NCBI RefSeq assembly: GCF_021083645.1 | Contig: NZ_JAJNRQ010000003.1 | Location: 124,001 to 188,000, forward strand | DNA from: Schaalia sp. lx-260 | GTDB taxonomy: Bacteria; Actinomycetota; Actinomycetes; Actinomycetales; Actinomycetaceae | Direction: 5' to 3' | Length of the DNA: 64,000 nucleotides | Shown: piece by piece, positions 9,140 to 21,131 of the stretch | Layout: each line of letters begins with the position of its first letter | Position numbering within the stretch: the first letter of the stretch is position 1 | Notes under the pieces: model-generated | Told to the model about the DNA's origin: nothing | Seen by the model: only the letters and a program-made list of their open reading frames with translations | Databases searched by the model: none | Made by a program: the position numbers and the translations under genes

Positions 9140-9901
9140 TCACCCACTCGTATCCACTAATGCAGCAATATCACCCGGACGATACAAGCGCGGCCCTACA
9201 CCCTCCACAGCATGCAGCTTTCCCCGATGACACCACGATCTCACCGTTGCATCTGGGATCACCCGACCTGTGAGGATTTGCGCAACCTCAACCGCACGAG
9301 CCCTAGGGAACGGCCTCGTAGCGATTGCGTCCAGCATTGCCTGCCTCGATTCTTCCACGTCACTGCGGGCTCCACAGGACCTACACACTGCTGCATCCAC
9401 ATACCGCTCGACAAGCAGATCAGTGCCACACTCAGCGCATCTTCCCGCGAACACCAACGCCTGTGAACACGGCGAGGCAAGGCGCTCAAGACGATGAACC
9501 GCATACACCACCTCGTCAACAAACGCTGGTGCCTGAACCCACCGCTTCGCCACGTCCGCATACTGACGGAACGTCTCACGAACCGCACACCAGTTGCCAC
9601 GCTTAACGAAGTACTTCGGTCCCATCACCCATGACGCAAGCTCGCAGGCCCAGACATTCACAGCATCTTGCATGTCCCACACCTCAAGAGCAAGCGCAAG
9701 GTTCAACGGCTCCTTCGACGAAGCACCCCCACCACCCGGTGGGTCCCCATGAGACAAGCCAGCAAGCGCATAATCCAAATCCCCCATCAGCTGAGGAAGA
9801 TCAGAAACAACCACACGCAACCGGTTCACCGCTGATTGAGAGACAAACTCCCCAGAGCGTAAAGGCTCCCCAGTGATCGGACACATCCCATCAGCTGCCA
9901 T
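9140..9901 (-). CDS. Phage DNA-binding protein: zinc ribbon plus MerR-like helix-turn-helix
   Basis: 253 residues from ATG 9901, where the frame overlaps the end of the upstream gene by 11 nt and has GGGGGA nearby; the open frame further up overlaps that gene's coding sequence and is not used. The N-terminal half is helical, with no known motif. A zinc ribbon (CAECGTDLL...CRSCGA) precedes a C-terminal helix-turn-helix (AVEVAQILTGRVIPDATVRSWCHRGKL) of the excisionase/MerR type. Similar proteins are common in actinophage early regions; the regulatory target is unknown. Confidence 0.65.
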   Translation of the reverse strand: MAADGMCPITGEPLRSGEFVSQSAVNRLRVVVSDLPQLMGDLDYALAGLSHGDPPGGGGASSKEPLNLALALEVWDMQDAVNVWACELASWVMGPKYFVKRGNWCAVRETFRQYADVAKRWVQAPAFVDEVVYAVHRLERLASPCSQALVFAGRCAECGTDLLVERYVDAAVCRSCGARSDVEESRQAMLDAIATRPFPRARAVEVAQILTGRVIPDATVRSWCHRGKLHAVEGVGPRLYRPGDIAALVDTSG

Positions 9902-11198
9902 AATCCCCCAAGCCTTCACTGCAACAACTCCTACACGGCAAGACATTCCCATGCCAAGAACACCTCTTGCGCGGCTTTTTCTTGCGCTTCCTGTTCCGCC
10001 TAGACGCAGCTGGAAACTCAGGCCCCGCCCGACCAAAGCCCGGCCCACCCCCAGACACAGGGCTAGCCCGACCCGGATCCGGCCCAGAACCCGGCCTTTC
10101 CCTACCCGACCCGACTCGACCCTTCCCTACCCGACCCGTGTATTTCGATATCCGGAGGGCAGCACTGGGCGAGTCGGGAGCCAATCGGCCCCCAGTCGTA
10201 GGACTATGGTCCCTGCTACTACTAGGACGCACACCGCCAGGAACAACATCCGATAAAGGTTCCTGCAAGCAATGATCAGTCGCCCGCGGATCAACTTCAC
10301 CAGGAGTTCCACTCACACTGGAATCAACCCCACCAACACCCTGACTCAACTCTCCCGCGAGCACACCCACCGAGGGAGTGTCTGAGGAAGGAATCTGGAT
10401 ATTTTGTGCAGGGGACTCGCTAGGAGCAGTGGAATCAACCCCACCAACACCCTGACTCAACTCTCCCGCGAGCACACCCACCGAGGGAGTGTCTGAGGAA
10501 GGAATCTGGATATTTTGTGCAGGGGACTCGCTAGGAGCAGTGGAAGGACGCAAAAGCCCACGTTCTTCCAAGTATTTTCTAGACCATTTCCCATATCTAG
10601 GACTAGCAGGAGCAGCAAGGAGCTCATGATAAGTACCCCAAGAACCCGTAGGATCATCTTGACGCTGACTATTACAACCCATACAGGCAACAACCATAGT
10701 ATCAACACTTCCGGCGCTACCAGGCTCAAGATGGTCAAGCGTACCCTTACGATTAGAAGGCTTACCCGGCCAATACACCTCTTTGCCACACCACCTGCAA
10801 TTATCACCATCACGAAGCATAACAGGACCCCGAAGATTAGGATCCGCATTATCATTACGACGCTGACGACCCCACTCAACATCCTCCTTAGAACGAATAT
10901 TGATGTAATCCTCGTCCTGAACAATCCTAATCTTCTTCTTTTCCCCATCTCCTTCCCACTCAAACAAACCAACAGCCAAACACTGCTCAAGCAAAATCTT
11001 CGCCCGAGAACCCCCATACATGAAAATAACGCCAAGATCGACAATATAATCAGTCAGATGCTTCGCCGAATAAGCAGCACACCTACACACGAAACCATGA
11101 ATCTCATTAATCGTTCGCTCATCAAAACCCTCAACAGTCGCCAGATCCATCAAACGCGGATTCGTATCCGACTCATCACCGACCTTAAGCCAAGACAA
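9891..11198 (-). CDS. HNH endonuclease with N-terminal replication-type domain and low-complexity tail
   Basis: 435 residues from a TTG at 11198 (protein begins MSWLKVGDES), chosen because AAAGGGGGG lies 7 nt upstream. Residues 1-125 resemble the winged domain of phage replication initiators. Then comes an HNH nuclease (CRWCGKEVYW, LDHLEPGSAG, CMGCNSQRQD). The C-terminal half is a disordered region with two exact 37-residue repeats, a Pro/Gly/Arg-rich stretch and a basic RKRKKKPRKR tail ending in a Cys pair (SWHGNVLPCRSCC). Located after SSB in the middle-gene block; probably DNA replication or recombination. Confidence 0.65.
   Translation of the reverse strand: MSWLKVGDESDTNPRLMDLATVEGFDERTINEIHGFVCRCAAYSAKHLTDYIVDLGVIFMYGGSRAKILLEQCLAVGLFEWEGDGEKKKIRIVQDEDYINIRSKEDVEWGRQRRNDNADPNLRGPVMLRDGDNCRWCGKEVYWPGKPSNRKGTLDHLEPGSAGSVDTMVVACMGCNSQRQDDPTGSWGTYHELLAAPASPRYGKWSRKYLEERGLLRPSTAPSESPAQNIQIPSSDTPSVGVLAGELSQGVGGVDSTAPSESPAQNIQIPSSDTPSVGVLAGELSQGVGGVDSSVSGTPGEVDPRATDHCLQEPLSDVVPGGVRPSSSRDHSPTTGGRLAPDSPSAALRISKYTGRVGKGRVGSGRERPGSGPDPGRASPVSGGGPGFGRAGPEFPAASRRNRKRKKKPRKRCSWHGNVLPCRSCCSEGLGDYGS
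10319..10540. repeat. Tandem 111-bp exact duplication inside the HNH gene
   Basis: Two adjacent copies (10319-10429 and 10430-10540) begin TGGAATCAACCCC and are identical as far as can be read. 111 is divisible by three, so the frame is kept and 37 residues are duplicated. Recent slippage or unequal crossing-over is likely. Confidence 0.9.
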
Positions 11199-11254
11199 CA
11201 GAAAACCCCCCTTTCCTATACCTATATATGTGCATGCACGTGCGAGGGAAAGAA

Positions 11255-11365
11255 TCAATCACTACAACGACACTCACCCGTCACAGGATTAATAACCCCA
11301 CCACAAGAATCACACACACGCACCTGCACAAAAACACTATCCGCACTACTTACAATTTCTTGCAC
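11255..11365 (-). CDS. 36-residue zinc-ribbon protein
   Basis: A short frame from GTG 11365 (GTG 11374 also possible) behind a GGGGGAGGGG site. Cysteines at 18, 21, 32 and 34 form a CxxC...CxC knuckle in CDSCGGVINPVTGECRCSD, the pattern of small zinc-ribbon proteins frequent in actinophage early regions. It sits between the neighbouring zinc-ribbon gene and the HNH gene in the same operon. Function unknown. Confidence 0.6.
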   Translation of the reverse strand: MQEIVSSADSVFVQVRVCDSCGGVINPVTGECRCSD

Positions 11366-11383
11366 ACCAAACACCCCCTCCCC

Positions 11384-11602
11384 CTACTTCCCTTGCCCCT
11401 CATAATCCTCCGGATACAACCACCACGGACGAAACCCAACCCCACACACACGCCTGTAATACGCCCGCTCAGTACACATACGCCGCTCATTTTCAACCCT
11501 CCTAAAACACGGACCACAACGCGCACGACCAGCAACCAAAACCTGCCCACACTCAGGACAAAACCTCTCCACACCACGACGCAAACCCACACCCCACACC
11601 AC
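11384..11602 (-). CDS. Small zinc-ribbon phage protein
   Basis: About 72 residues. The open frame continues upstream into ssb (to 11695), but ssb ends at 11619 and AAGAGGGG lies just after it, favouring a GTG near 11602 (11611 is an alternative). It carries CPECGQVLVAGRARCGPC, a CxxC...CxxC zinc ribbon, followed by an Arg-rich helix with further Cys. Typical small nucleic-acid-binding protein of actinophages; exact role unknown. Confidence 0.5.
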   Translation of the reverse strand: MVWGVGLRRGVERFCPECGQVLVAGRARCGPCFRRVENERRMCTERAYYRRVCGVGFRPWWLYPEDYEGQGK

Positions 11603-11618
11603 AAACAACACCCCCCTC

Positions 11619-12074
11619 TTAGAAAGGCGACAAAGAAGACGCGCTCGCAGCTGGCGGCCAGACAAGCCCTTCAGAAACAGGTGTGGTAGACGCATTTTCT
11701 GAGGGCGCTTGGCCGGTGCGTTCTACTTTTGCGCGGGCCTTTCGTAAGGACGGGCCAATATCATCAACTTGCAGCTCTACTACCGTGCGTTTGTCGCCCT
11801 CACGTGTCTCGTATGAGCGTTGAGTAAGCCTGCCTGTCACAATGACACGCATACCTTTACGGAGCGTCTCTGCGACATTATCAGCTAGGTCACGCCAGCA
11901 CGTGCAGCGCATAAAAAGCGTGTTTGATTCATGCCACGTGCTCGTGTCCCTATCAAAAAGCCTCGATGAGGAAGCCACATCAAACGATGCGACAGCGACC
12001 CCTGTTTGCGTGAAACGCAGCTCAGGATCACCCGTCAAGTTTCCTTTTAGTGTTATGAGTGTTTCACCAGCCAT
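11619..12074 (-). CDS. ssb: Single-stranded DNA-binding protein
   Basis: 151 residues. Residues 1-110 are the OB fold ([86 protein letters not shown]). The tail is short and ends SSLSPF: the terminal Pro-Phe that docks partner proteins is kept, but the usual acidic DDDIPF is not. Phage SSB for replication and recombination, in the middle-gene operon with RusA. Confidence 0.9.
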
Positions 12075-12086
12075 ACGCGCACCCTC

Positions 12087-12524
12087 CTATTCGCTCTTTT
12101 TCCATCGACATTTTTTACACATGCCCCCAGCAGCTATAGCGACCGTGCCAGGCATAGCACCAGCACGCACACCCTGAGGGCGCAACAACCTCCCGCAATC
12201 CCCTTCACAGGGCCTAGCCCCAGCAGCTATCAGGTCAAAAACCTCATCAAGACTCTTACCTGACTTACACACCCACACGGCTATAGCGCGACGCTCACGA
12301 CTTCGAGTCCCCCCAAAAATTTCCTCCCACCGATCATTTACAGCCCTAGGATGCGCAACATCACGACACAGCTGCTCATAGAGGCATTCACGTATCACTG
12401 GGCAAAACTCGCATATACGCAAAGCATGAGCAGCTTCCTCAGAATCAGAACGCACAGGGAAAAAGAAATTCTTTTCCACATCATCCAAATACCGACACGA
12501 AGCCTGCGTCACCCACCCACGCAT
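12087..12524 (-). CDS. Phage WhiB-like regulator with extra C-terminal zinc ribbon
   Basis: 145 residues. Cysteines 10, 38, 41 and 47 form the WhiB iron-sulfur pattern (C-x27-C-x2-C-x5-C; RICEFCPVIREC), followed by the signature turn (EIFGGTRSRERRA). Beyond the family's normal end there is an additional Cys4 unit (CEGDC at 106-110 and CKKC at 136-139), predicted to bind zinc. WhiB proteins bind the primary sigma factor; phage versions such as that of phage TM4 repress host genes. Fourth in the leftward middle operon. Confidence 0.8.
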   Translation of the reverse strand: MRGWVTQASCRYLDDVEKNFFFPVRSDSEEAAHALRICEFCPVIRECLYEQLCRDVAHPRAVNDRWEEIFGGTRSRERRAIAVWVCKSGKSLDEVFDLIAAGARPCEGDCGRLLRPQGVRAGAMPGTVAIAAGGMCKKCRWKKSE

Positions 12525-12527
12525 ACC

Positions 12528-12995
12528 TCAACACACATCCTCAGATACGGCAGGTAAACGAAAAACACTAATACTCACACCCTCCATAGACACCCCCGCA
12601 TAATGCTTACTCCCTATCCAACGCACAATCCGCGAGTCGTCCTTAATGACATTGCCTGTGACTGTGAGAGCATCCCCAATAGCACGCATCAGCTTGTCAA
12701 GATCAGGCTTAGTCGCAGGACGATCAAAACGCGCTCGGGTGGGTCGTGGAAGATGAAAAGACACATCGATGCTGACTGGTTCATCTAGTGGTAGCTCCCA
12801 GCCTTTTGATTGAGCAGCCCGCGTCACCTCGAACGCGACTTTTGTGCGCCACGCTTTCAACTCTGCCCCCTTATGATGGACCATCACAGGGCGGGAAGAA
12901 CCCGTAAACACTTTCATTGACCCTTGAGGTACTGGCACGCCAGCAACCCACACCCGCCCTAAAGCGGTGCACATAGGTCCAAACTCTGCTGTCAT
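12528..12995 (-). CDS. RusA-like Holliday junction resolvase
   Basis: 155 residues. RusA family features: N-terminal VWVAGVPVPQGSMKVF, the DNA-binding strand IDVSFHLPRP, and the catalytic aspartates in KPDLDKLMRAIGDALT and KDDSRIVRWIGSKHYA. It cleaves four-way junctions and trims branched phage DNA before packaging. It overlaps the upstream membrane-protein gene by one base and is followed by the WhiB-like gene. Confidence 0.85.
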   Translation of the reverse strand: MTAEFGPMCTALGRVWVAGVPVPQGSMKVFTGSSRPVMVHHKGAELKAWRTKVAFEVTRAAQSKGWELPLDEPVSIDVSFHLPRPTRARFDRPATKPDLDKLMRAIGDALTVTGNVIKDDSRIVRWIGSKHYAGVSMEGVSISVFRLPAVSEDVC

Positions 12996-13186
12996 CAGCG
13001 CTCACCCCACACCAGAAAACACACCGCGAGGGCGGACAATACTTGCATGACGATAAAACCGGCTATGAGTAGCCACGAGGAAACCCATACGCCCAGCGGT
13101 ACCCCGAACGCTAAAAGCCACGTCATAACATGCGCGCAGGCCAACACCACCACAAGCGATTTTTCGTTCTCACTCACACGTATCAC
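12995..13186 (-). CDS. Small phage membrane protein
   Basis: 63 residues with two hydrophobic segments (VVVLACAHVMTWLLAFGVPLGVWV and WLLIAGFIVMQVLSALAVCFLVW) and short charged ends. Stop overlaps the rusA start. No family recognised; small two-helix membrane proteins are frequent in actinophage early regions. Confidence 0.5.
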   Translation of the reverse strand: MIRVSENEKSLVVVLACAHVMTWLLAFGVPLGVWVSSWLLIAGFIVMQVLSALAVCFLVWGER

Positions 13187-13394
13187 CCTCAGCTAGACGC
13201 GCAGCCGCATCATGAGCAGCATCCGCATATGTCAATGCCGCAAAAATCTGCAGCGCAAGTTTTTCGCACACCGGCTCCACACGACGAAACACATCATCGA
13301 GTTCATCAGCTAAAACTCCCAGATCGTCACGAACCCTCATCCACATATCAGAAGAAAAAGCGTCTTTTCCCATCAGCACAGTCCAATCACTCAC
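13170..13394 (-). CDS. Small phage protein, unknown
   Basis: 74 residues from a GTG at 13394 that overlaps the upstream stop (coupled); in-frame ATGs at 13373 and 13415 have no better ribosome site. Acidic and helical (DDLGVLADELDDVFRRVEPVCEKLALQ, YADAAHDAAARLAEGD). Co-directional with, and overlapping, its neighbours. No known motif. Confidence 0.45.
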   Translation of the reverse strand: MSDWTVLMGKDAFSSDMWMRVRDDLGVLADELDDVFRRVEPVCEKLALQIFAALTYADAAHDAAARLAEGDTCE

Positions 13395-13614
13395 AAGCCT
13401 GCGTGCAGGCCTCATTGCAGACGGGCTTAATCGTGGCCCGCTCAGGGTGAGCCACTAGCCCCACTAAAAACGGCTGCAAAGCCTCTAAAACAGCCTCCAT
13501 ATAAAGCCAGTGCGTATCCAAGCCCACAACAGGTTCAACCGCGCGCACAGCCTCAAAACACGCTTTACGTACCGACAAAGGCACCCACACAACCGACTCG
13601 CATTTTTCACACAT
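13387..13614 (-). CDS. Small Cys-containing phage protein, unknown
   Basis: 75 residues from ATG 13614 (MCEKCESVVWVPLSVRKACF); an upstream in-frame start at 13674 would overlap the preceding gene. CEKC near the start and CNEACTQAC at the end could bind one zinc ion. Part of the leftward early operon. Function unknown. Confidence 0.45.
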   Translation of the reverse strand: MCEKCESVVWVPLSVRKACFEAVRAVEPVVGLDTHWLYMEAVLEALQPFLVGLVAHPERATIKPVCNEACTQACE

Positions 13615-13625
13615 AAAATCAGCCC

Positions 13626-13802
13626 CTATCGCCGTCCAGCTACGCGGCCCGCGCGCTTGAAGATGTACCAACAAGAGGCAAAGAACAACGCAAACGAAAC
13701 AAGCGCCACCCAGCCGTTGTCATACCCGTAATTACCCCAGCCAAAGACCAAAAGACCGCTGAGACAGAAAACCGTTAACGCCACATAATCACGCTTCAAC
13801 AT
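13626..13802 (-). CDS. Small two-helix membrane protein
   Basis: 58 residues from ATG 13802, with AAAGGAGGG upstream; the open frame beyond is unsupported. Two hydrophobic segments (VALTVFCLSGLLVFGW and WVALVSFALFFASCWYIF) around an Asn/Gly/Tyr loop, with an Arg-rich C-terminus, predict an inner-membrane hairpin. No family recognised. Confidence 0.55.
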   Translation of the reverse strand: MLKRDYVALTVFCLSGLLVFGWGNYGYDNGWVALVSFALFFASCWYIFKRAGRVAGRR

Positions 13803-13919
13803 TTCTCGCGTCCCTCCTTTTCTAGTCCTTGGTGCGTTGGGTTCCTCCCCAGTAGGCTTGAATCGGAAGCACACGACAGGCTCACAGGAGAACGCCCATC
13901 ACCTACTAGGGAGGAAGAA

Positions 13920-14438
13920 TTGCACTCACTGTTTGATTGGTTTATGTCACTAGACACAGGCGTGAAAATTTCTGCACTTGCACTGCTGACTACATTCCTG
14001 TTTGGTTTTTTCAATGCAGCTCTCGCTCTTTTCAGGTACATCACCGTCGAAAGACCGATGATAAAAACCCACACGCACTCAGAAACAACGAGCAGCCATA
14101 GTCCAAGGCGTGATGACAATGCAAACACAAATGCGCCTAAGACAGATGAAGCTGAGAGCCAAGCGAGGAACCCTACGCGAGTAATTTTCATCTGGACCAA
14201 TAAAAATGCTTTCATGCTGCGAAATACTGGTAATACGAGCGTCACAATCTTTGCAGTCACAAACCGCGAGGATTTTGTTTTACTTGATCTTGAAACACCC
14301 TGCACACTCGATCCAGACCGATCAGTAAACGGAGTCGCCATCGGCGCTTTCGGGGCACCCGTGCCAGGCGAGATAGTGTTAGAAACGTCTTCAACCGAAA
14401 CACCCATCATTGTTCCGATTCCTCCTCGACCGATCTAG
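13920..14438 (+). CDS. Rightward single-pass membrane protein, possible prophage moron
   Basis: 172 residues from a TTG at 13920 with GGGAGG 7 nt upstream. It is the only rightward gene among the leftward early genes. One N-terminal membrane segment (VKISALALLTTFLFGFFNAALALFRYI), a polar linker (about 45-85) and a beta-rich domain (RVIFIWTNKNAFMLRNTG...ITIFAVTNREDFVLLDLET). Its last 32 nt overlap the convergent gene at 14407. A separately transcribed, isolated gene suggests lysogenic expression, for example superinfection exclusion; this is inference. Confidence 0.6.
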   Translation: MHSLFDWFMSLDTGVKISALALLTTFLFGFFNAALALFRYITVERPMIKTHTHSETTSSHSPRRDDNANTNAPKTDEAESQARNPTRVIFIWTNKNAFMLRNTGNTSVTIFAVTNREDFVLLDLETPCTLDPDRSVNGVAIGAFGAPVPGEIVLETSSTETPIIVPIPPRPI

Positions 14439-14775
14439 ACCTGTCGGCCATATGCTCCGCTAAAACACCACGCAAAACCTGCTTGGCCCAGCAATCGAGG
14501 CGGCCTTCACGCACCGCCTTGAGCGCGGCGACAACCTCTTTCTCGCTGATGTCGTAACGAGCAAGACGGGTCGCCACCAAACCAAGAAGCTGAGCCTCCC
14601 CACGGGAACCCGGATCGAATGGACTCACACGACCAGCCCTGACCCCATCTCCGCCGTTGCGGCGCAAGTGGAAGATCACATCCACCGCTTCGGAGGAATA
14701 ACACTTGACGCTGACGGAAACCTTGTCGAACCCCTCGAATAAGGGGGAAACCTCAGACACTTCAACCCACGGCAT
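14407..14775 (-). CDS. Phage early protein, unknown
   Basis: 122 residues from ATG 14775 with GAGGGGGG upstream (the open frame further up lies in the structured-RNA region and is rejected). N-terminal beta segments (WVEVSEVSPLFEGFDKVSVSVKCY), then helices (EAQLLGLVATRLARYDISEKEVVAALKAVREGRLDCWAKQVLRGVLAEHM). No family recognised. It is the first protein gene after the tandem structured RNAs, so it would be the first target of any attenuation. Confidence 0.55.
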   Translation of the reverse strand: MPWVEVSEVSPLFEGFDKVSVSVKCYSSEAVDVIFHLRRNGGDGVRAGRVSPFDPGSRGEAQLLGLVATRLARYDISEKEVVAALKAVREGRLDCWAKQVLRGVLAEHMADRSRSVEEESEQ

Positions 14776-14784
14776 CACGCCACC

Positions 14785-15142
14785 CCCCTCAGCAAGGACA
14801 ACGCAGACACAGCAGAAAAGGGTGTAGTCCACCCAAGGACTGAAATCATGGACCAACCGGCCTTTCTACATAAACGCTTTTCTAGAGCGGTACTGAAAAA
14901 ATAGGATTCTCGCCGCGCTTTGCAACTGCGCGGCAGGAATCGGGAGCTAGAAAAACCGTGTAGAATCGGCCAGCAGGTATTCCCCTTACGGGTCTTGTAT
15001 TCCCTGCGTACTCCCGACACTAAGGCCGTGAATATAGTAAAACCAGCTTTTGAACGGGAGCTGGATACCGTTCTACACAAGGTGTTTCTAGCACCTGCAC
15101 CAGACAGTACACGAGTCCCGCCAAACATGTCAAGCGTTTTCG
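14785..15142 (-). ncRNA. Structured RNA, copy A (about 358 nt)
   Basis: Leftward copy. Paired elements on the RNA: hairpin AGGTG-(CTAGAAA)-CACCT; hairpin CCAGCT/AGCTGG with loop CCCGTTCAAA; TCGGGAG with CTCCCGA; GCAGG/CCTGC around CCC-GTAA-GGG; GCCGCGC/GCGCGGC. The segment TTCTACAC...TTTCTAG (plus 14947-14965) can pair with upstream GTGTAGAA and the CTAGAAA loop (15071-15091), or with downstream CTAGAAA and TGTAGAA (14864-14885). Ends (80 nt and 42 nt) are nearly identical to copy B, while the interior differs by compensating changes. Precedes the gene starting at 14775; no known RNA family recognised. Confidence 0.75.
14816..14834 (-). terminator. Terminator-like hairpin at 3' end of RNA copy A
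   Basis: On the RNA, GGGTG-GACTA-CACCC is followed by TTTTC. An overlapping alternative stem (AGTCC-TTGGGT-GGACT) would prevent it, so it could serve as a switchable attenuator. The stem is only 5 bp; strength is uncertain. Confidence 0.45.
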
Positions 15143-15157
15143 CACTCATCTCTCACA

Positions 15158-15524
15158 CCCCTCAGCAAGGACAACGCAGACACGGCAGAAAAGGGTGTAG
15201 TCCACCCAAGGACTGAAATCATGGACCAACCGGCCTTCCTTTTGAAACGCTTTGTTAGAGCAGTACTAAAAAGATGAGCACATTTTTCACGCTGCATATG
15301 CATGAAAAAAGCACCGGGAGCTAACAAAACCGCAAAAGGATCGGCCATCGGGTATTCCCCCGCCTGTAGGCAGGGTCTTGTATTCCCCGATACTCCCGGC
15401 GTTAAAGCCATAGATACAAAGAATCCGACCTTTGAACGGGAGTCGGAAACCGCCCTTTTGCAGGTGTTGTTAGCACCTGCCCCAGACAGTACACGAGTCC
15501 CGCCAAACCTGTCAAGCGTTTTCG
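15158..15524 (-). ncRNA. Structured RNA, copy B (about 367 nt)
   Basis: Upstream copy of the same element. Equivalent pairs with changed bases: GCAGGTG-(CTAACAA)-CACCTGC; CCGAC/GTCGG around loop CCCGTTCAAA; CCGGGAG/CTCCCGG; ATCGGG/CCCGAT enclosing a GCC-TACA-GGC hairpin; TTTTTCA/TGAAAAA. The switch segment CCTTTTGC...TTGTTAG (plus 15321-15339) pairs either with GCAAAAGG and the CTAACAA loop upstream (15454-15473) or with CTAACAA and CAAAAGG downstream (15238-15258). Its 5' side overlaps the truncated helix-turn-helix frame starting at 15594. Confidence 0.75.
15189..15207 (-). terminator. Terminator-like hairpin at 3' end of RNA copy B
   Basis: Same GGGTG-GACTA-CACCC stem followed by TTTTC, and the same competing AGTCC/GGACT pairing, as in copy A. 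Together they would give two attenuation points in series before the early operon. Confidence 0.45.
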
Positions 15525-15594
15525 TACACACACCTAAAATCACCGCCGCTTCCTTAACCGAAACATAACGCGGCTGCACAGTTGATGTGGTCAT
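15512..15594 (-). pseudogene. Truncated helix-turn-helix gene running into structured RNA
   Basis: From ATG 15594 about 28 residues read as an excisionase/AlpA-like start (QPRYVSVKEAAVILGVCTKTLD), which normally continues RW..G. Here the frame enters RNA copy B and runs on to 15130 without protein-like sequence. The start overlaps the preceding stop as ATGA. The same QPRY leader recurs near 16080 (MQPRYV after AGGAGG) and at 17376, so gene starts have been copied around this region. Confidence 0.5.
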
Positions 15595-15767
15595 GACGCA
15601 TCACCTACACAACATGAGTAGATAGCGTGTAGTGAACGCGGCAAAGGCCGATTTACGCAGGTATGCTTATACACGTCTCCTCCAATGGGGATTAAGGCCC
15701 CGTTTTCGCGTTCTTCCGCCAAGTCGATAGCGAGAACGGGGTTTTCACTAACTGAATCTGTCAGCAC
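15591..15767 (-). CDS. Possible 58-residue protein upstream of the truncated gene
   Basis: A frame from GTG 15767 to 15591 ends ...GDAS with an ATGA overlap onto the next start, exactly as the repressor-like gene at 17373 does. It has VLAIDLAEERENGALIPIGGDVY and Cys near the end. There is no clear ribosome site. The stretch also holds an inverted repeat (CCCCGTTTTCG/CGAGAACGGGG followed by TTTT on the plus strand, about 15701-15745) that may end rightward transcription. Confidence 0.3.
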   Translation of the reverse strand: MLTDSVSENPVLAIDLAEERENGALIPIGGDVYKHTCVNRPLPRSLHAIYSCCVGDAS

Positions 15768-15820
15768 CGGGCTAACAGATAAGAATATAGCAGTGTTAGC
15801 GTCATGCTGACAATTTTTAT

Positions 15821-16039
15821 TTATTCGCCGTCTGCGGCGATTCGATAGATCATCGTCCGAGCCACGCCTGCAGAGGTTGCAATTTCCTGCCGGGGTATTC
15901 CAGCATCGAGCGCAGCTCTGACAGCAGCAGCACGTTCTGCGGCCGCGTCCAATACCTGCGCATTGAGTGCTCGTGTTTTCTCGCTGGTCCTCTTGACCTC
16001 CGCGAGTAGTCTGCGCTTCTCCTGCTCGTTCACACTCAT
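15821..16039 (-). CDS. Small helix-turn-helix protein
   Basis: 72 residues from ATG 16039 with GGGG upstream. A charged coiled-coil-like helix (NEQEKRRLLAEVKRTSEKTRALNAQVLDAAAERAAAV) leads into a resolvase-type helix-turn-helix at the end (DAGIPRQEIATSAGVARTMIYRIAAD). Probably a regulator of the early/control region. Its upstream leader contains a relic of the QPRYV gene start. Confidence 0.5.
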   Translation of the reverse strand: MSVNEQEKRRLLAEVKRTSEKTRALNAQVLDAAAERAAAVRAALDAGIPRQEIATSAGVARTMIYRIAADGE

Positions 16040-16149
16040 CACCCCAAATACTATCAATGCCACTGCAATGAACATAACGCGGCTGCATAGTTAAACCTCC
16101 TGTAGGTTTTCTGACCCCCTCCCGGATGCCCCCGGGTAGGGGTTTGGTT

Positions 16150-16377
16150 TTAACGATCCGCGAGCCTGGCTCGCCATTCAGCGGCAGCTTCAGCAGTGAT
16201 GTACACGCGTTGTTTTCCACCGCCCGTGATCTTGGCTTTCAACGGTGGATAGTTTTTCGATGTTCCGTTAATGCATTCCCACGCGGTTGTTTTCGATACA
16301 CCGTGCAGGTGGGCGAAATCGTCAACGCCCATCATCAACGGACCATGCATGACAACGACTTGCGCTTGAGTTTTCAC
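16150..16377 (-). CDS. Excisionase-like / AlpA-type DNA-binding protein
   Basis: 75 residues. Helix-turn-helix MGVDDFAHLHGVSKTTAWECING followed by a beta wing and the helix ITAEAAAEWRARLADR: the layout of MerR-like phage excisionases and AlpA regulators. It is far from the integrase (about 5.6 kb) and follows the Cro-like gene in the leftward operon. A second, broken copy lies at 17023-17145 in the 210-bp repeat. Confidence 0.6.
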   Translation of the reverse strand: MKTQAQVVVMHGPLMMGVDDFAHLHGVSKTTAWECINGTSKNYPPLKAKITGGGKQRVYITAEAAAEWRARLADR

Positions 16378-16464
16378 CGCTTATCCTCCTAACTTCTTCT
16401 ATTTACTTTCTTCTAACGCTTTTTCAATGCCCGAGCCTGCGAGCGCAGACTGGCTTTCCTCGGC
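16255..16464. repeat. 210-bp direct repeat, left copy
   Basis: Matches 17023-17232 with only two visible differences (A/C at GATACACCG and G/A at CCCGAGCC). It covers the 5' part of the excisionase-like gene and the 3' end of the Cro-like gene, so the right copy carries broken pieces of both. Confidence 0.95.
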
Positions 16465-16659
16465 TCTGCGTAGGAGTTCCCACGCGGGGATGCCTAGGAC
16501 TCTTCCAATTGAGTGCAGTTCGTTGACTGTGAGCTCTTTGTGTCCGTTCAGGCGAGCGCTGAGGTATTCGCGCTTCAGTCCGGTGAGGGAGGCGAGCTGA
16601 ATGATCTTCAAGTTTTGGCGTGCAATCTCGGCTCGCACCTCTGTTTCGGGGTATATCAT
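16399..16659 (-). CDS. XRE-type regulator (Cro-like), first gene of leftward operon
   Basis: 86 residues from ATG 16659 (GGAG 4 nt upstream); the open frame to 16755 covers the promoter and is rejected. XRE helix-turn-helix IARQNLKIIQLASLTGLKREYLSARLNGHKELTVNELHSIGRVLGIPAWELL, then a disordered Ala/Glu/Ser tail. Driven by a consensus leftward promoter containing an operator. With the divergent gene at 16767 it forms a Cro/CI-like pair. The tail lies in the 210-bp repeat. Confidence 0.7.
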   Translation of the reverse strand: MIYPETEVRAEIARQNLKIIQLASLTGLKREYLSARLNGHKELTVNELHSIGRVLGIPAWELLRRAEESQSALAGSGIEKALEESK

Positions 16660-16667
16660 TACACTCC

Positions 16668-16758
16668 GTTCGTAGTAGCGAACATCTTTATAGGTATTAT
16701 TGTTCGCTGCTACGAACATTGTCAAGCGTTTTGACCTGATTGTTCGCATATGCAAACA
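16668..16758. promoter_or_regulatory. Divergent control region with three operators
   Basis: Operators: GTTCGTAGTAGCGAAC (16668-16683), its near inverse GTTCGCTGCTACGAAC (16702-16717), and TGTTCGCATATGCAAACA (16741-16758). A leftward promoter TTGACA-N17-CAATAA (16725 down to 16697) has the second operator between its boxes, so repressor binding would block it. Rightward, TTGACC-N17-AAACAT (16731-16759) would give a leaderless transcript for the ATG at 16767. Confidence 0.75.
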
Positions 16759-16766
16759 TTTAGCGC

Positions 16767-17039
16767 ATGGGAAACCCGCTAATTACCGGTGAAATTGACC
16801 AGATACTCTCTGAGATTCTTGATGAAATCCGGGGCGATTCAGGCCTTTCGCTACGAGGACTATCGGAAGCATCCGGTATAAAGCTGACGCGACTCGGCGA
16901 CATTTTGCGTCGCGGCAGGGCTATGACAGGCAATGAGATTCACGCAATCGCGGCAGCTCTCGATAGGTCAGGCTGGCGAGTTTTTCGTGAAGCCGAGGAG
17001 CGTTTGGAAGCTGAACAATCCGTTTCGATGTTCCGTTAA
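16767..17039 (+). CDS. XRE-type repressor, C-terminus altered by repeat junction
   Basis: 90 residues. Helix-turn-helix EIRGDSGLSLRGLSEASGIKLTRLGDILRRGRAMTGNEIHAIAAALDRSGW. It reads divergently from the Cro-like gene and has no ribosome site, so it is probably leaderless. The last five residues (VSMFR) come from the 210-bp repeat that starts at 17023, so the original tail has been replaced. It may still bind DNA. Confidence 0.6.
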   Translation: MGNPLITGEIDQILSEILDEIRGDSGLSLRGLSEASGIKLTRLGDILRRGRAMTGNEIHAIAAALDRSGWRVFREAEERLEAEQSVSMFR

Positions 17040-17145
17040 TGCATTCCCACGCGGTTGTTTTCGATACCCCGTGCAGGTGGGCGAAATCGTCAACGCCCAT
17101 CATCAACGGACCATGCATGACAACGACTTGCGCTTGAGTTTTCAC
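17023..17145 (-). pseudogene. Broken copy of the excisionase-like gene
   Basis: From ATG 17145 the first 41 residues match the intact gene at 16150 (MKTQAQVVVMHGPLMM... to NGTSK); at the repeat boundary (17023) the frame runs on into the antisense of the rightward repressor gene, giving unrelated sequence to 16921. The beta wing and last helix are lost. Confidence 0.75.
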
Positions 17146-17232
17146 CGCTTATCCTCCTAACTTCTTCTATTTACTTTCTTCTAACGCTTTTTCAATGCCC
17201 GAACCTGCGAGCGCAGACTGGCTTTCCTCGGC
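17023..17232. repeat. 210-bp direct repeat, right copy
   Basis: Second copy of 16255-16464. The two copies are 768 bp apart and enclose the Cro-like gene, operators and rightward repressor; recombination between them would remove all three. Confidence 0.95.
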
Positions 17233-17376
17233 AGCTTCAGAAAAACGGGTTTCGGCCTCGTGAGTGAGCGCGCTTGCAGTTGTTCCAATCGCGTGAGCGA
17301 CGGCTATTAGCTCTCCTGTTGAGAAAGCGACTTCGCCAATCGAGGCATAACGCGGCTGCACAGTTGATGTACTCAT
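17167..17376 (-). CDS. Chimeric small regulator fragment
   Basis: 69 residues: the QPRYAS leader shared with the gene start at 15594, then half an XRE-like domain (FSTGELIAVAHAIGTTASALTHEAETRFSEA), then the same 21-residue tail as the Cro-like gene because it ends within the 210-bp repeat. It begins at an ATGA overlap with the upstream regulator. Without a complete helix-turn-helix it may be a nonfunctional fusion product. Confidence 0.45.
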   Translation of the reverse strand: MSTSTVQPRYASIGEVAFSTGELIAVAHAIGTTASALTHEAETRFSEAAEESQSALAGSGIEKALEESK

Positions 17377-17615
17377 GACGCATCACCCGCACGTGAGGGA
17401 TCAGATATCAAGCACAGTAGCTCACCGGGAGTCAGTGCAAATGCGTCACACATACGCGCGATAAATTCAGGGCTAGGCGAGCGCTCTCCGCCTCGGTAGG
17501 CTTTGTATGTGTTGAGTGCGACTCCGCCGAGTGATGCCATTGCTTGGTCGCTGTTTATGCCGGAGAACTTTTTTAGTCGGTCGAGTAGTCCGTTTTTGAT
17601 GACTAGGTTTGACAT
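17373..17615 (-). CDS. XRE-type regulator, second Cro-like gene
   Basis: 80 residues from ATG 17615 with GGGGGG 5 nt upstream; the longer open frame is promoter DNA. Helix-turn-helix LLDRLKKFSGINSDQAMASLGGVALNTYKAYRGGERSPSPEFIARMCDAFALTPGELLCLI. It is transcribed divergently from the leaderless repressor at 17751 and starts a leftward operon. It probably binds the TTTGC-N5-GCAA operators in the gap. Confidence 0.7.
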   Translation of the reverse strand: MSNLVIKNGLLDRLKKFSGINSDQAMASLGGVALNTYKAYRGGERSPSPEFIARMCDAFALTPGELLCLISDPSRAGDAS

Positions 17616-17653
17616 ATGGCCCCCCTTGCTGTGTTGTTTGATGCAATTTCTGG

Positions 17654-17744
17654 TTTGCATATAGCAATAATAGGGAGGGGCGATAATGTTTGTCAAGTCA
17701 AATGCAAATCTATTTTTGCGTTAGGCAAATGTGCGTTGTATGAT
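17654..17744. promoter_or_regulatory. Second divergent control region, leaderless repressor promoter
   Basis: Leftward promoter TTGACA-N18-TATTAT (17696 down to 17667) faces left; rightward promoter TTGCGT-N17-TATGAT (17716-17744) faces right and puts +1 at or next to the ATG at 17751. Operator-like sites TTTGC-ATATA-GCAAT (17654-17668) and TTTGC-GTTAG-GCAAA (17715-17729) overlap the -10 and -35 boxes respectively. Confidence 0.75.
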
Positions 17745-17750
17745 GCGTGT

Positions 17751-18344
17751 ATGAAAACAGCTCAATGGCTAAAGAAGGTTAGTGGTGGCACGTCTGTTAG
17801 TGCTATAGCTACTCGCGCGGGGTATCCGGCTTCGACCCTGACTCGTCAGATTAAAAGAGGACAGTTGAGTTCTGATGTTGTCATTCAGATTGCTCGTAGT
17901 TATCGGACCTCGATTTTAGAGGGGTTAATCGCGTGTGGGCATATTACTGAGGATGAAGCTGGTTTGAAGGCTCGTGCGAATATTGCTGAGGCTTTGGAGG
18001 ATGCTACGGATCGTCAGTTGATTGAGGAGCTGTTGCGGCGTGTGGTAGATGATGATGGTTTAGGGCATCCTGATTTGCGGACTGACATTGATGTTGATGA
18101 GTATATTCAACCTTTCTCTAGAGTTGCTCCGCCCGTTGCGGCAGTCTCGGAGCCACCCTCAGCTCATGATTACTCCTGCGCTAACGATTCGGAAGTTATT
18201 GTGTTGCCTAATGGTCGTCGGGTTACGCGGGCAGATATAGATAGGGCTGCGGCGCTGGATGTCGGATACGCGCCTGAAATGGAATGGGACCAACCGCCCG
18301 TGAGCGAGGAAGATTATTCGCAGGATTTCGACGACTATCTATAA
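17751..18344 (+). CDS. Immunity repressor-like protein, leaderless
   Basis: 197 residues from ATG 17751, 6 nt after a TATGAT -10 box, so the mRNA is probably leaderless as for lambda cI. N-terminal helix-turn-helix (SVSAIATRAGYPASTLTRQIKRGQLSSDVVIQIARSY), helical middle, then a long acidic region ending EEDYSQDFDDYL with an internal EVIVLPNGRRVTRADIDRAAA segment. Similar repressor-like proteins occur in actinobacterial prophages. No autoprotease site is seen, so induction may depend on the ImmA-like protease at 21147; that link is inference. Confidence 0.65.
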   Translation: MKTAQWLKKVSGGTSVSAIATRAGYPASTLTRQIKRGQLSSDVVIQIARSYRTSILEGLIACGHITEDEAGLKARANIAEALEDATDRQLIEELLRRVVDDDGLGHPDLRTDIDVDEYIQPFSRVAPPVAAVSEPPSAHDYSCANDSEVIVLPNGRRVTRADIDRAAALDVGYAPEMEWDQPPVSEEDYSQDFDDYL

Positions 18345-18481
18345 AAAGCAGCACGGTCTTACTCTTGAGCTTGTCACCTAAAGGCCCATGAGCGTTTTAT
18401 TTACCGCTCGTATAGAGATAGGGTTCTATCTTGTGACAGTGTGCTTATGTAGGAAAGACCTTAAGTAAGGCGAGGCTAAGG

Positions 18482-19015
18482 GTGAATCCACAGATACATT
18501 CTCTTACTCATAGTGGGATGAGTGTTGCGTTCTACTGGGTGAACGAACCTTCCGCTTACTGTGAAGATCATAGGAATGCTGCGCTCAAAGCCCTTCTGCA
18601 AGCTGCAGATGGCGAGGATAACCGGCTAGCTAACCCGTATCAGCGCGCTTTCGCTCGCGCCGCTTTTATGGCGAGGCTAGAAGAACTCTCACACGGACTA
18701 TTAAAACCATACGAGGAAGTGAAAGCTCTTTCGCGCCCTACTTGTCCGCTGTTTGAAGTTCGGTGGCAACATATCCGCGTCCGCGTACGAAAAGACTCAG
18801 GACAATTTACGCACGCTGAGATTCCTATTCGGATGATTTTCGCTGAACCCGTTGAACTTAGTAATGCTGCTTTGGGTTTGCACGCACACGAAAAACTGGT
18901 TTTTGAAAACGATGAAGCGCAAACAAGAAGCCGTCAAAACGCGGAGATTGACCACGCGGCAGCAATATATGAGGGCGGCAAGACTAACTGGTGGGGACTG
19001 AATCTATATCTATGA
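18482..19015 (+). CDS. HigB-like toxin of a toxin-antitoxin-chaperone module
   Basis: 177 residues from a GTG at 18482 (ATG 18518 possible). The C-terminal part has the RelE/HigB (Gp49-like) pattern: LFEVRWQHIRVRVRKD, then PIRMIFAEP, then LGLHAHEKLVFENDEAQTRSRQNAEIDHAAA, like the family's 'LLHGFxKKxxKTPxxEIxxA' end. Predicted ribosome-dependent mRNA endonuclease. It is first in an operon followed by an XRE antitoxin and a SecB-like chaperone, the order of the Mycobacterium tuberculosis Rv1955-Rv1956-Rv1957 system. Its N-terminal extension is longer than in typical HigB. Confidence 0.7.
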   Translation: MNPQIHSLTHSGMSVAFYWVNEPSAYCEDHRNAALKALLQAADGEDNRLANPYQRAFARAAFMARLEELSHGLLKPYEEVKALSRPTCPLFEVRWQHIRVRVRKDSGQFTHAEIPIRMIFAEPVELSNAALGLHAHEKLVFENDEAQTRSRQNAEIDHAAAIYEGGKTNWWGLNLYL

Positions 19016-19058
19016 GACAAATTTGTGCCCACAATATAAAAAATATAGGTTATACCCT

Positions 19059-19427
19059 ATGGAGTACACCGAAGTGGATTTTGAAGCAATTGAAGCTCTC
19101 GCACTTCAACTACACCGCGAGCGCTCAAGGTTTTTAAGAGGGTTGGTTGGTGTTCGTAAGGCTCATGGTCTTACGCAAAGTGATGTTGCTGAGCGTATGG
19201 GTGTGAGTCAGCCTACGGTGTCTGAGTTTGAGCATTATGATGCTAATCCGCGTTTGGATACGATTTTGCGGTACGCTTTGGCGGTTGATGCGAATGTGTA
19301 TTTGCGTGCTTTTGAGGCTGATTCTTTTCGTGCGGGGTGGACTCGGGTTTCTCGGTCTGGGGAGACTACTGAGTTTTCTTGCGAGTTTGAGGTGCCGCGT
19401 GTGTGGGCTGAGATGAGTGCAGCATGA
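19059..19427 (+). CDS. HigA-like XRE antitoxin with C-terminal extension
   Basis: 122 residues from ATG 19059; an upstream start at 19023 is less likely, and AT-rich TATAGGTTATACC before the ATG suggests an internal promoter with a leaderless message. Helix-turn-helix at 25-80 (RKAHGLTQSDVAERMGVSQPTVSEFEHYDANPRLDTILRYALAV). The last 35 residues (WTRVSRSGETTEFSCEFEVPRVWAEM) lie beyond the DNA-binding domain, where chaperone-addiction sequences occur in SecB-dependent antitoxins. Overlaps the chaperone gene by 4 nt. Confidence 0.75.
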   Translation: MEYTEVDFEAIEALALQLHRERSRFLRGLVGVRKAHGLTQSDVAERMGVSQPTVSEFEHYDANPRLDTILRYALAVDANVYLRAFEADSFRAGWTRVSRSGETTEFSCEFEVPRVWAEMSAA

Positions 19428-19885
19428 GTGCGGGTAGGGTTGCCGTGCAAACGGTTGAGGATTTTATGACTGTGGGTATGCCTGAGATTCGTCGTATCTA
19501 TGCCTATTGTTTGCGTGCGGCTATGTATGAAAATGGCCCTGATGAGACTATTGAGCGTGGGGCTACGAATATGACGGTTGGACTTCAGTTTAAGAGTGTT
19601 GATGATGAGAATCTTGTGCTTTTGCGGTTTAGTTTTGACTTAAAAGGGCGCTATTGGAATGGGGAAGTCGATTATGTGCTTGAGTATGAAGTCGCAGAAA
19701 AGATGGATGTGCCTAACTCGGTTATAGAGGAGTTTGCGACACGTTCGGCAGTGATGTGTGTGTATCCTTATGTGCGTTCTGCGGTTGCGGATTTGACTTC
19801 AAAGCTGCCGATTCCGACAGTGACTTTGCCATTAAAAAGGCCGGGCGAGCTTGATTTTATGCGTGAGGGAATTTTAGGAGAGTAA
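19424..19885 (+). CDS. SecB-like chaperone of the toxin-antitoxin module
   Basis: 153 residues. SecB fold pattern: strands VGLQFKSVDDENLVLLRFSFDLKGRY and VDYVLEYEV, then helix SVIEEFATRSAVMCVYPYVRSAVADLTSKL and the C-terminal IPTVTLPLKRPGELDF, which parallels SecB's 'LFPYARE...G.FP.LNL.PVNFDAL'. Solitary SecB-like genes are rare in Gram-positive bacteria except in TAC modules, where the chaperone binds and protects the antitoxin. Start overlaps the antitoxin stop (ATGA). Confidence 0.75.
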   Translation: MSAGRVAVQTVEDFMTVGMPEIRRIYAYCLRAAMYENGPDETIERGATNMTVGLQFKSVDDENLVLLRFSFDLKGRYWNGEVDYVLEYEVAEKMDVPNSVIEEFATRSAVMCVYPYVRSAVADLTSKLPIPTVTLPLKRPGELDFMREGILGE

Positions 19886-19957
19886 TACCTGAATGGCCGG
19901 CGCCCTTTGCCTTTTATGGTGTGAGTGCGGGCTGAATTAGCGTAAGGGCGTGGCCCA

Positions 19958-20067
19958 ATGACCACTCACTACTTGTCGTTGCATGGTGTGGTCACACACT
20001 TAGGCCTTGCTTATATGACACTGCGTACTATCTGAGAGACGGGCGCTTACCTGCCCCTGACAGACTT
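19958..20067 (+). pseudogene. Frameshifted copy of the AlpA-like gene at 20827
   Basis: ATG 19958 reads YLSLHGVVTHLGLAYMTLRT, close to the intact gene's YLSLHGVSQHLGLAYTTVRS. A one-base loss near 20028 then creates a stop; in the next frame YLRDGRLPAPD continues the match. The stretch 20068-20203 after it holds no gene, only a palindrome GTATAC-N6-GTATAC (20086-20103) and a segment repeated from about 19890. Confidence 0.75.
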
Positions 20068-20203
20068 TCCCTCTTGGCAGTAAGGGTATACAAATGTGTA
20101 TACTTCAGCTGTCGGAGGCCTTGGCCTGAATAGCCAGCACCCTTTGACCCGACTGCGGATGCAGTATCGGTTCGTGCGCGTATGTTTCGCACATTCATAC
20201 GTT

Positions 20204-20239
20204 GGTCTGCCACTCATTTCTTGGGTGGCAGACCTTTTA
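20204..20239 (+). terminator. Rho-independent terminator
   Basis: Stem GGTCTGCCAC/GTGGCAGACC (10 bp) followed by TTTT. It ends rightward transcription from the toxin-antitoxin-chaperone operon. The next 130 bases carry no recognisable gene, only a GTGTAGG/CCTACAC inverted repeat (20257-20291). Confidence 0.85.
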
Positions 20240-20375
20240 GTAAAAGCGGCCTATATGTGTAGGCACGTGGCTGTGGGCATGACACCTACACTTACTAACC
20301 GTCTATCTCTCTTGATTTATTTAGTTAAGGGGCATCGGACTGTTTTCATGAAGCACAGGGATTTAGAAAACGTTA

Positions 20376-20417
20376 GGTGAACGGGTTATGTTTCCCAACT
20401 CCGTTCACCTCCTTTTT
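20376..20417 (+). terminator. Terminator whose 3' arm is an anti-Shine-Dalgarno
   Basis: Stem GGTGAACGG/CCGTTCACC followed by TCCTTTTT. The stretch GTTCACCTCCTTT (20403-20415) is also perfectly complementary, over 13 nt, to the ribosome site AAAGGAGGTGAAC (20470-20482) of the small peptide gene. Read-through RNA would therefore either stop here or mask that ribosome site. Confidence 0.8.
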
Positions 20418-20430
20418 AATGCCATTCAAT

Positions 20431-20459
20431 TTGACTGCGTTTATTAAGCAGTGTATTAT
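20431..20459 (+). promoter_or_regulatory. Consensus promoter for the 34-residue peptide
   Basis: TTGACT-N17-TATTAT. Transcription would start near 20466, after the anti-Shine-Dalgarno, so this RNA escapes masking and carries only a 19-nt leader with a near-perfect ribosome site. Confidence 0.75.
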
Positions 20460-20484
20460 GAATGTGTTGAAAGGAGGTGAACAG

Positions 20485-20589
20485 ATGGACCTGGTAGGAA
20501 TAGCAGCGATCATTGCGACGCTTGCCAAACTTGTTCAAGCAATAGCTGAGCTGGTAGGCGAGATTAAAAAGCCGAAAGATCGCAAGTAA
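20485..20589 (+). CDS. 34-residue hydrophobic peptide, TisB-like toxin candidate
   Basis: Start ATG 20485 with AAAGGAGGTGAACAG before it. The peptide begins MDLVGIAAIIATLAKLVQAI and ends with a basic KKPKDRK tail: one amphipathic membrane helix with Glu/Lys on one side. The pattern M-(N/D)-L-V-x-I-A with regularly spaced Leu resembles E. coli TisB, a type I toxin that depolarises the membrane; holin-like toxins and phenol-soluble-modulin-like peptides are alternatives. The own promoter, upstream anti-Shine-Dalgarno and downstream hairpin fit a tightly controlled toxin. Confidence 0.65.
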   Translation: MDLVGIAAIIATLAKLVQAIAELVGEIKKPKDRK

Positions 20590-20596
20590 AAAGCTA

Positions 20597-20631
20597 GTGG
20601 TCCGGAGATGAACCATCCAACTCCGGGCCAC
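20597..20631. terminator. Hairpin after the peptide gene
   Basis: Stem GTGGTCCGGAG/CTCCGGGCCAC (11 bp with one T-G pair) and a 13-nt loop, 7 nt after the peptide stop. There is no U-tract, so it may stabilise the mRNA end more than terminate. Confidence 0.5.
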
Positions 20632-20659
20632 CGGCCCTACCGGTATTCCATCACACAAT

Positions 20660-20830
20660 ATGAAAAATCGCAACGAAATTAACCTGTTCGCCTATATCCT
20701 CATAGCCACTCTCGTATGGACTGGTTATAACGCGTACGCACTGGTAGCGCTTGGGATACTCGCTCTTGCTGCGCTGATTGAGCTTGTAGCGGGCTTTGTT
20801 GCCCAAAGGAGCGAAGGTGAAAAACAATGA
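20660..20830 (+). CDS. 56-residue membrane protein
   Basis: From ATG 20660: polar start (MKNRNEINLF), two hydrophobic stretches (AYILIATLVWTGYNAYALVALG and ILALAALIELVAGFVA), polar end (QRSEGEKQ). Its stop overlaps the next start as ATGA, which supports translation even though there is no clear ribosome site. Function unknown; it could be an accessory to the neighbouring regulator or the peptide. Confidence 0.55.
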   Translation: MKNRNEINLFAYILIATLVWTGYNAYALVALGILALAALIELVAGFVAQRSEGEKQ

Positions 20831-21045: not shown

Positions 21046-21054
21046 ATACGCTAT

Positions 21055-21075
21055 GGGGTGGCGAAATGCCACCCC
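21055..21075 (+). terminator. Terminator after AlpA-like gene
   Basis: Perfect 8-bp stem GGGGTGGC/GCCACCCC with GAAAT loop, followed by TCCACCTTTT. Confidence 0.65.
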
Positions 21076-21131
21076 CTCCACCTTTTAGAATCGCGCGTGT
21101 CTCATGTGGTACGCAGATGTGGGTGCCACAG

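Follow-up and report, generated by a model that had tools for sequence, protein, structure and literature searches.

The 64,000-nucleotide stretch of Schaalia sp. lx-260 DNA that we analysed (the window) carries two tandem elements on its minus strand, copy B (15530-15130) and copy A (15148-14775). The pair heads the leftward early operon of a prophage whose integrase lies at 23347-21962, and the copies are framed by two sets of direct repeats, one 140 nt long (spacing 382) and the other 122 nt long (spacing 373). The order of parts is the same in each: promoter-like boxes (TTGACA-18-TACTGT), a segment a1 in a GGTG/CACC loop, a segment b1, a hairpin H2 and a core of three stems (P1, P2, P3). 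The core is followed by variable sequence; next come a2, within a small hairpin, then b2, which lies at a ribosome site, and last a short leader ORF (Table 1).

Table 1. Parts of the two elements and of the operon that follows them (window positions).
Feature	Position	Strand	Evidence or remark
Copy B promoter-like boxes	15486..15515	-	TTGACA 15515-15510, 18 nt, TACTGT 15491-15486; sequence
Copy B a1 (CTAACAA)	15467..15473	-	loop of hairpin GGTG-loop-CACC 15477-15463
Copy B b1 (CAAAAGG)	15454..15460	-	pairing and whole-genome pattern search
Copy B antisense core (P1, P2, P3), putative	15304..15401	-	covariance models RF02221, R1
Copy B b' in P3 loop	15339-15333	-	core of copy B
Copy B a' in junction	15327-15321	-	core of copy B
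Copy B a2 (15258-15252) and b2 (15244-15238)	15238..15258	-	pairing, pattern search
Copy B leader ORF, 30 aa, MISVLGWTTPFSAV...	15130..15222	-	sequence, ORF list
Copy B GGGTG/CACCC hairpin and TTTT, terminator-like (unsupported)	15193..15207	-	inside leader ORF B
Copy A promoter-like boxes	15104..15133	-	TTGACA 15133-15128, 18 nt, TACTGT 15109-15104; sequence
Copy A a1 (CTAGAAA)	15085..15091	-	loop of hairpin GGTG-loop-CACC
Copy A b1 (TGTAGAA)	15071..15077	-	pairing and pattern search
Copy A antisense core, putative	14931..15018	-	covariance models RF02221, R1
Copy A b' and a'	b' 14965-14959, a' 14953-14947	-	core of copy A
Copy A a2 (14885-14879) and b2 (14870-14864)	14864..14885	-	pairing, pattern search
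Copy A leader ORF, 24 aa	14775..14849	-	stop overlaps next gene's ATG (TGATG)
Copy A GGGTG/CACCC hairpin and TTTT, terminator-like (unsupported)	14820..14834	-	inside leader ORF A
First gene of putatively controlled operon, 122 aa	14407..14775	-	no Pfam or PHROG match
Rest of early operon	11619..14410	-	unknown genes, RusA 12995-12528, WhiB 12524-12087, SSB 12074-11619

The promoter-like boxes of copy B were missed by a consensus promoter scan; by eye, a TANNNT box stands at the aligned position in 9/9 sequences of our alignment A3. The GGTG/CACC stem around a1 is likewise invariant (9/9 aligned sequences). At the 3' side, b2 overlaps the leader ribosome site AAAAGGAAGG in copy B and runs into the site AGAAAGG in copy A. 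The stop of the copy A leader ORF overlaps the start of the 122-aa gene, an arrangement that copy B lacks; copy B has no separate target gene, since its leader ORF stop overlaps the TTGACA of copy A. The GAGGGG that was originally taken for the ribosome site does precede the ATG at 14775, but the site that the switch would cover lies further upstream, at b2.

Several features upstream of the pair deserve mention. The start of the ORF that continues into copy B (15594-15510, minus strand) reads like an excisionase-type HTH (PRYVSVKEAAVILGVCTKTLDRF), has no Pfam match and contains a 22-nt piece that recurs at 16071-16092. A duplicated segment occupies 16126-16392 and 16921-17160, and its minus-strand ORFs (16377-16150 and 17145-16921) have their first ~40 residues in common. 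A hairpin at 15695-15746 carries the loop ACTTGGCGGAA, with below-cut-off matches to PK-repBA (E 0.05), PK-repZ (E 0.069) and, on the other strand, CopA (E 3.1).

The core of each copy holds two short guides, b' and a', that can pair on either side. CTAACAA and CAAAAGG occur twice in sense and once in antisense in copy B, as do CTAGAAA and TGTAGAA in copy A. Searching the 1.93-Mb genome, we found each guide pattern in exactly three places, all within its own copy, and 0 matches to reversed-pattern controls. Exact complementary runs measure 8+8 bases upstream and 8+8 downstream in copy B, and 8+8 upstream and 8+7 downstream in copy A. The original prediction held that a central segment pairs with an upstream or a downstream site, and that both partner sites changed in step with it between the copies; these exact triples, unique in the genome per copy, bear out both points.

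Relatives gave the same picture. A lenient form of the core motif occurs in at least 120 stretches of viral contigs, a stricter form in 16. We tested 125 distinct elements from 167 motif matches, having dropped 4 with short flanks and 38 repeated R segments; cores with another P2 (e.g. G134, L147, L148) fall outside the 125 because the motif was the search pattern. Counting collinear Watson-Crick runs that sum to at least 13 bases, upstream complementarity was present in 105/125 elements, against 135/1500 (9.0%) in cross-locus and 34/625 (5.4%) in shuffled controls, and downstream complementarity in 106/125, against 101/1500 (6.7%) and 33/625 (5.3%). Both sides were complementary in 91/125, these being mutually related elements rather than independent trials; the cross-locus control is conservative, since relatives are among its members too.

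The pairing is also specific to each element. Among 25 elements (21 from the window's family), guides matched their cognate sites in 24/25 cases upstream and 23/25 downstream, versus 95/600 and 58/600 for non-cognate sites; the own partner was strictly best in 18/25 and 16/25, respectively, and best or tied in 21/25 on each side. RNAduplex, which ignores the self-folding of each strand, preferred the own upstream site in 14/14 rows from six arrays and the own downstream site in 9/14, with misses in Actinobaculum massiliense, G134 (two), L088 and L054 and 4/4 for the window. The cleanest case of guide and target changing together comes from two near-identical RNA-plus-gene modules on one phage contig, L165 and L166, which have different guides: b1, b' and b2 each differ at two adjacent bases, in step, and the stretch from the -35 box to the leader ATG shows three further differences. 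Each module precedes its own paralogous ORF, which reads like a helix-turn-helix protein. Because guide and both targets change in step, L165/L166 and the window's copies A and B would make ready-made specificity tests of P1/P7-type immunity.

Covariation points the same way. RNAalifold, run on nine close relatives, chose the a1b1:a'b' pairing unprompted, with many both-side changes. The a1:a' and a':a2 helices each have 95.2% of cells paired, with covariation scores of 0.405 and 0.429 versus 0.196 and 0.218 when shuffled, and they beat all 500 shuffles on cells paired, both-side-change cells and covariation score. The number of pairs with a both-side change was not above shuffles (98/500 for a1:a' and 103/500 for a':a2 reach the count), nor was the number of pair types (296/500 and 267/500). 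Together with complementarity on both sides far above controls, the unprompted choice of RNAalifold argues for two mutually exclusive folds, as had been proposed, and the broader view of a structured minus-strand RNA, present twice where the early operon begins, is supported as well.

Compensatory changes had also been claimed for other helices, and this is borne out. In nine relatives, 13/31 pairs carry a change on both sides, compared with 4.1 ± 1.4 after shuffling and 1 to 4 after sliding. These changes fall in H2, P1, P2, P3 and the a2 hairpin, H2 being paired in only 40% of cells on the nine-relative alignment, whereas the a1 hairpin and inner P2 show zero variation. An extra switch, in which the H2-loop CTCCCG captures the 5' strand of stem P1, looked promising in the nine close relatives only and was rejected: such pairing of at least 6 bases occurs in 51/125 elements, 421/1250 cross-locus and 181/625 shuffled controls, which is not clearly above chance. 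By eye, the first leader codons repeat most of a' in 7/9 close relatives (TTCTAG, TTTTCAG, TTCTTAG and others) and vary with a2 (L136, L144, L150, L134; A3 columns 302-311). Such a leader start would offer a2 one more possible partner, and this pairing could shut off the ribosome site; window copies A and B lack the repeated sequence.

What the two folds control is a separate matter. The original prediction placed a GGGTG/CACCC hairpin with a U-run at the end of each copy and proposed a strand-exchange attenuator or antiterminator; on such a reading the two folds would decide whether this hairpin stops transcription. The hairpins, each with TTTT, are indeed present at both copies, and coupling of leader translation to termination has a precedent in P1 c4, where termination is Rho-dependent. 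However, they lie inside the leader ORFs, the stem has 5 pairs, and 14700-15900 holds 3 terminator-like sites against 1.3 ± 1.1 by shuffling. By eye, no such stem with a T-run occurs in the other 7 A3 sequences; that of A. massiliense has a similar stem without the T's. With a hairpin not clearly above chance in the region and not seen in the 7 other aligned relatives, we consider attenuation quite unlikely. An alternative fold of copy A, in which the U-run side pairs with the ribosome site, was matched by 16/200 shuffles (z -1.48), and copy B is predicted to fold differently. A T-run of at least 5 T follows a1b1 in 88/125 relatives versus 62/625 shuffled sequences; by eye, the window copies have no clear T-run there (TTTT in copy A, ATTCTTTG in copy B), and no IsrK-type terminator (hairpin plus T-run) lies between a1b1 and core in either.

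The original prediction recognised no named RNA family, which the Rfam covariance search corrects. One family reaches its gathering threshold in the 64-kb window, sRNA-Xcc1 (RF02221), at copy A (57.9 bits, cut-off 53). Copy B, at 43.2 bits (E 5.5e-6 over 1301 bases), is under this cut-off but plainly duplicates copy A; our model R1, which includes both sequences, scores them at 60.9 (B) and 68.2 bits (A). Rfam places sRNA-Xcc1 in no clan. The C4 family (RF01695), against which P1 itself scores 68.8 bits, has no match in 14600-15900 at E up to 5, and a covariance model of 47 cores fails to find P1 C4; alignment A4 comprises 45/50 selected cores and the two window cores. Since neither model matches the other's RNA, we rejected Rfam C4 membership by sequence and regard common descent with C4 as unsupported. 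The isrK family (RF01394) has no match in the window copies and gives 35.1 bits with the P1 a1b1 region, below its cut-off of 50. Against annotated phages, from which records very near the window's genome were possibly left out, neither blastn with the element nor megablast with window positions 9000-23400 found a match.

The likeness to C4 is one of architecture. The P1 record annotates the order a1, b1, c4, a2, b2, icd, ant, and the succession of promoter, a1, b1, core, a2, b2, leader ORF and gene is the same in our elements as in the C4 (RF01695) and c4-a1b1 (RF03163) RNAs of P1 and P7. Both window cores fold into P1, P2 and P3 with guides in the P3 loop and junction, again as in P1/P7 C4, and the guides are complementary to a1b1 upstream and a2b2 downstream, with b2 at the leader ribosome site. 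Phage P1 differs in that its P2 stem is a plain short hairpin, in that no sequence model matches in either direction, and in that its operon is an antirepressor operon with one copy annotated. In layout and pairing, then, the elements appear to work like C4, though by model they are not Rfam C4 members. In the CI RNA of phage P4 (seqA/seqB/seqC), too, a single antisense segment has partners on both its upstream and its downstream side; this RNA controls the replication operon and acts by premature termination, and we liken it to our elements on this general description.

C4 is described, in part in the available sources, as pairing at the ribosome site of its target and as being processed from a longer transcript (PMC5320573, PMC12197685). 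For isrK-orf45-anrP of Gifsy-1, the accessible part of one report gives experimental evidence of two alternative folds, a hidden leader ribosome site, activation in trans by the upstream segment, and an overlapping stop and start (PMC4825925). The two folds, the hidden leader site and the translational coupling to the next gene would be the same in our elements, which differ in lacking a clear T-run after a1b1 and a match to RF01394.

With sRNA-Xcc1 the elements share the core fold and the conserved P2 motif. It was described in Xanthomonas campestris as an sRNA of 88 nt (PMC2996969) and, in integron cassettes, upstream of symE (PMC12444791); what is available of these descriptions is without a1b1/a2b2 partners, unlike our elements. 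In a Xylella fastidiosa island, five copies (sXF1-5) stand in a row at a spacing of 381-386 nt; the available part of that report treats them as vesicle-carried sRNAs with possible virulence roles, leaves adjoining partners undiscussed, and lists C4 and sRNA-Xcc1 side by side as separate Rfam matches (PMC12189769). In E. coli O157:H7 EDL933, an excerpted table places sRNA-Xcc1 among ncRNAs whose ribosomal coverage is low and gives 40293 in what is presumably its RNA-read column (PMC5331693).

In the viral relatives, the genes most often found downstream encode antirepressor-type domains. For the downstream ORFs of 107 viral loci, each taken as the longest starting within ~1 kb of the core, the counts are Bro-N 20, Rha 16, P22_AR_C 14, KilA-N 13, AntA 11, ORF6N 8 and P22_AR_N 5, where one protein may count in several families. 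The 107 are those scanned of 120 proteins (one L088 repeat and 12 from loci L135 and above were omitted); three elements had no usable ORF, and the two window copies were passed over. Control ORFs 2.5 kb further on (55 of 57 proteins, two repeats omitted) yielded no such antirepressor-type family among 25/27 families listed; 53/110 elements had no usable control ORF and 15 were outside consideration. In three annotated phages the gene directly downstream is an antirepressor, ant or KilA-N. The prophage of the window departs from this pattern: no antirepressor domain occurs in the seven operon ORFs scanned with Pfam, five of which were also scanned with PHROGs.

These data bear on two further explanations. 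A riboswitch or protein-binding leader, whose core senses a ligand and shifts between a1b1 and a2b2 pairing, would fit the high conservation of the P2 motif (AATACAA-ACCC..GGGGAATA) in otherwise variable cores, given that this motif was the search pattern for most of them; yet the guides vary with pairing kept, as expected of antisense specificity, and the families that most often lie downstream in relatives belong to phage regulators rather than to a pathway, so that we hold it to be very improbable. That the segment codes for protein is scarcely credible: both copies do lie inside frames open across the element (15594-15130 and 15149-14775), but indels between 15389 and 15279 (copy B) push these frames out of register in the core, in-register differences by codon position number 14/12/20 of 88/89/89, the copy B frame has no PHROGs match and its start no Pfam match.

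We return to antisense control. The exact three-way complementarity, the covariation among relatives, the P1 c4-icd-ant layout and the association with antirepressor-type genes are observations, and we think it very probable that the elements are two antisense immunity switches of the C4 type, arranged in tandem and each with its own specificity. Each copy would be transcribed leftwards from its own promoter, and its core would fold into three stems, exposing the guide b' in the loop of P3 and the guide a' at the junction. In the off state, a'b' would sit on a2b2, covering the leader ribosome site and leaving the leader untranslated; the early operon, coupled to the leader by the overlapping stop and start, would then stay off, giving lysogeny and immunity. 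In the on state, a'b' would be held by a1b1, leaving the ribosome site of the leader accessible and the operon expressed. We infer this off/on assignment from the annotated order in P1, the pairing of C4 at its target's ribosome site and the Gifsy-1 isrK experiments. The RNAs may act in trans, and each copy would act on its own sites, since the guides of copies A and B differ.

Under a strict filter that loses weak matches, RF02221 matches 13/213 genomes of the window's family and the core model 15/213 (own genome included in both); among 396 genomes drawn evenly from the phylum the core model finds the window's own genome only, and in an order draw RF02221 finds 3/396, own included. Arrays hold 2 copies in the window, 2 in Actinobaculum massiliense, 3 in Arcanobacterium sp. 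and 2 each in L088 and L054; G134 has 3 within 1.5 kb, G270 has 4 cores, the last without a1b1 (by eye), and Xylella has 5 sRNA-Xcc1 copies in a row (PMC12189769, in its available part).

A third, solitary core lies elsewhere in the same genome (contig C5:1430-1523, minus strand; 38.7 bits with model R1; L206, L209). It carries a TTGACA box of its own and a stem with TTTTT after it, with no a1b1/a2b2 seen, and sits between degenerate repeats of a type I-E-like CRISPR array. The intact part of this array lies on C11 (C11:42759-44248), where one repeat is adjoined by a shorter version of the core's 3' half. The solitary core matches a nearby ORF over 11 nt, which we set aside as unconvincing: the pattern occurs at four genome places besides the core (that ORF included) and its reversed control at two. 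In the array trailers on C5 and C11 (L206, L222), single CRISPR-like repeats punctuate small gene cassettes. One cassette ORF (L206 797-1087, plus strand) matches EndoU weakly (22 bits, cut-off 25.3) and resembles, by eye, the C-terminus of the prophage head protein at 5050-3854 (minus strand), a MuF-like VG15 protein with a weak C-terminal EndoU nuclease match of its own (22.6 bits, cut-off 25.3).

One might speculate that array copies form an immunity bank, in which gene-less extras are kept as trans guides against the a2b2 sites of other phages. Their targets would be early or antirepressor operons of those phages, and guide pairs would be renewed by compensatory change. Candidates are copy B, some Arcanobacterium, G134 and G270 copies, and the solitary CRISPR-trailer core. 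Against this idea, array copies retain a1b1 and a2b2 sites of their own, and searches elsewhere turned up no matching target: exact matching found no trans targets in the genome beyond the elements' own sites, and two viral-contig scans for the same guide pairs gave five places, none of which are such elements by sequence or model R1. The genome's 24 CRISPR spacers had matches of only 12-13 nt to the window. We regard the bank as rather unlikely; if true, it would amount to an RNA-guided repertoire that works without protein and is built on a C4-type scaffold.

C4-type antisense immunity is already known as a kind of system. What is new in the antisense reading is, in all likelihood, that sRNA-Xcc1 would constitute a second C4-type class, with an actinobacterial branch; repeated tandem copies with differing guides, and control of a replication-type early operon, are new as well. 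In the open-licence literature, as far as its partial coverage extends, we found no published link between sRNA-Xcc1 and C4. Hitherto sRNA-Xcc1 has been regarded as an sRNA linked to virulence in plant pathogens. Our comparison would recast it as the core of a phage immunity switch whose partners adjoin it, and suggests re-reading the copies that neighbour symE in integrons as well as those of the Xylella island.
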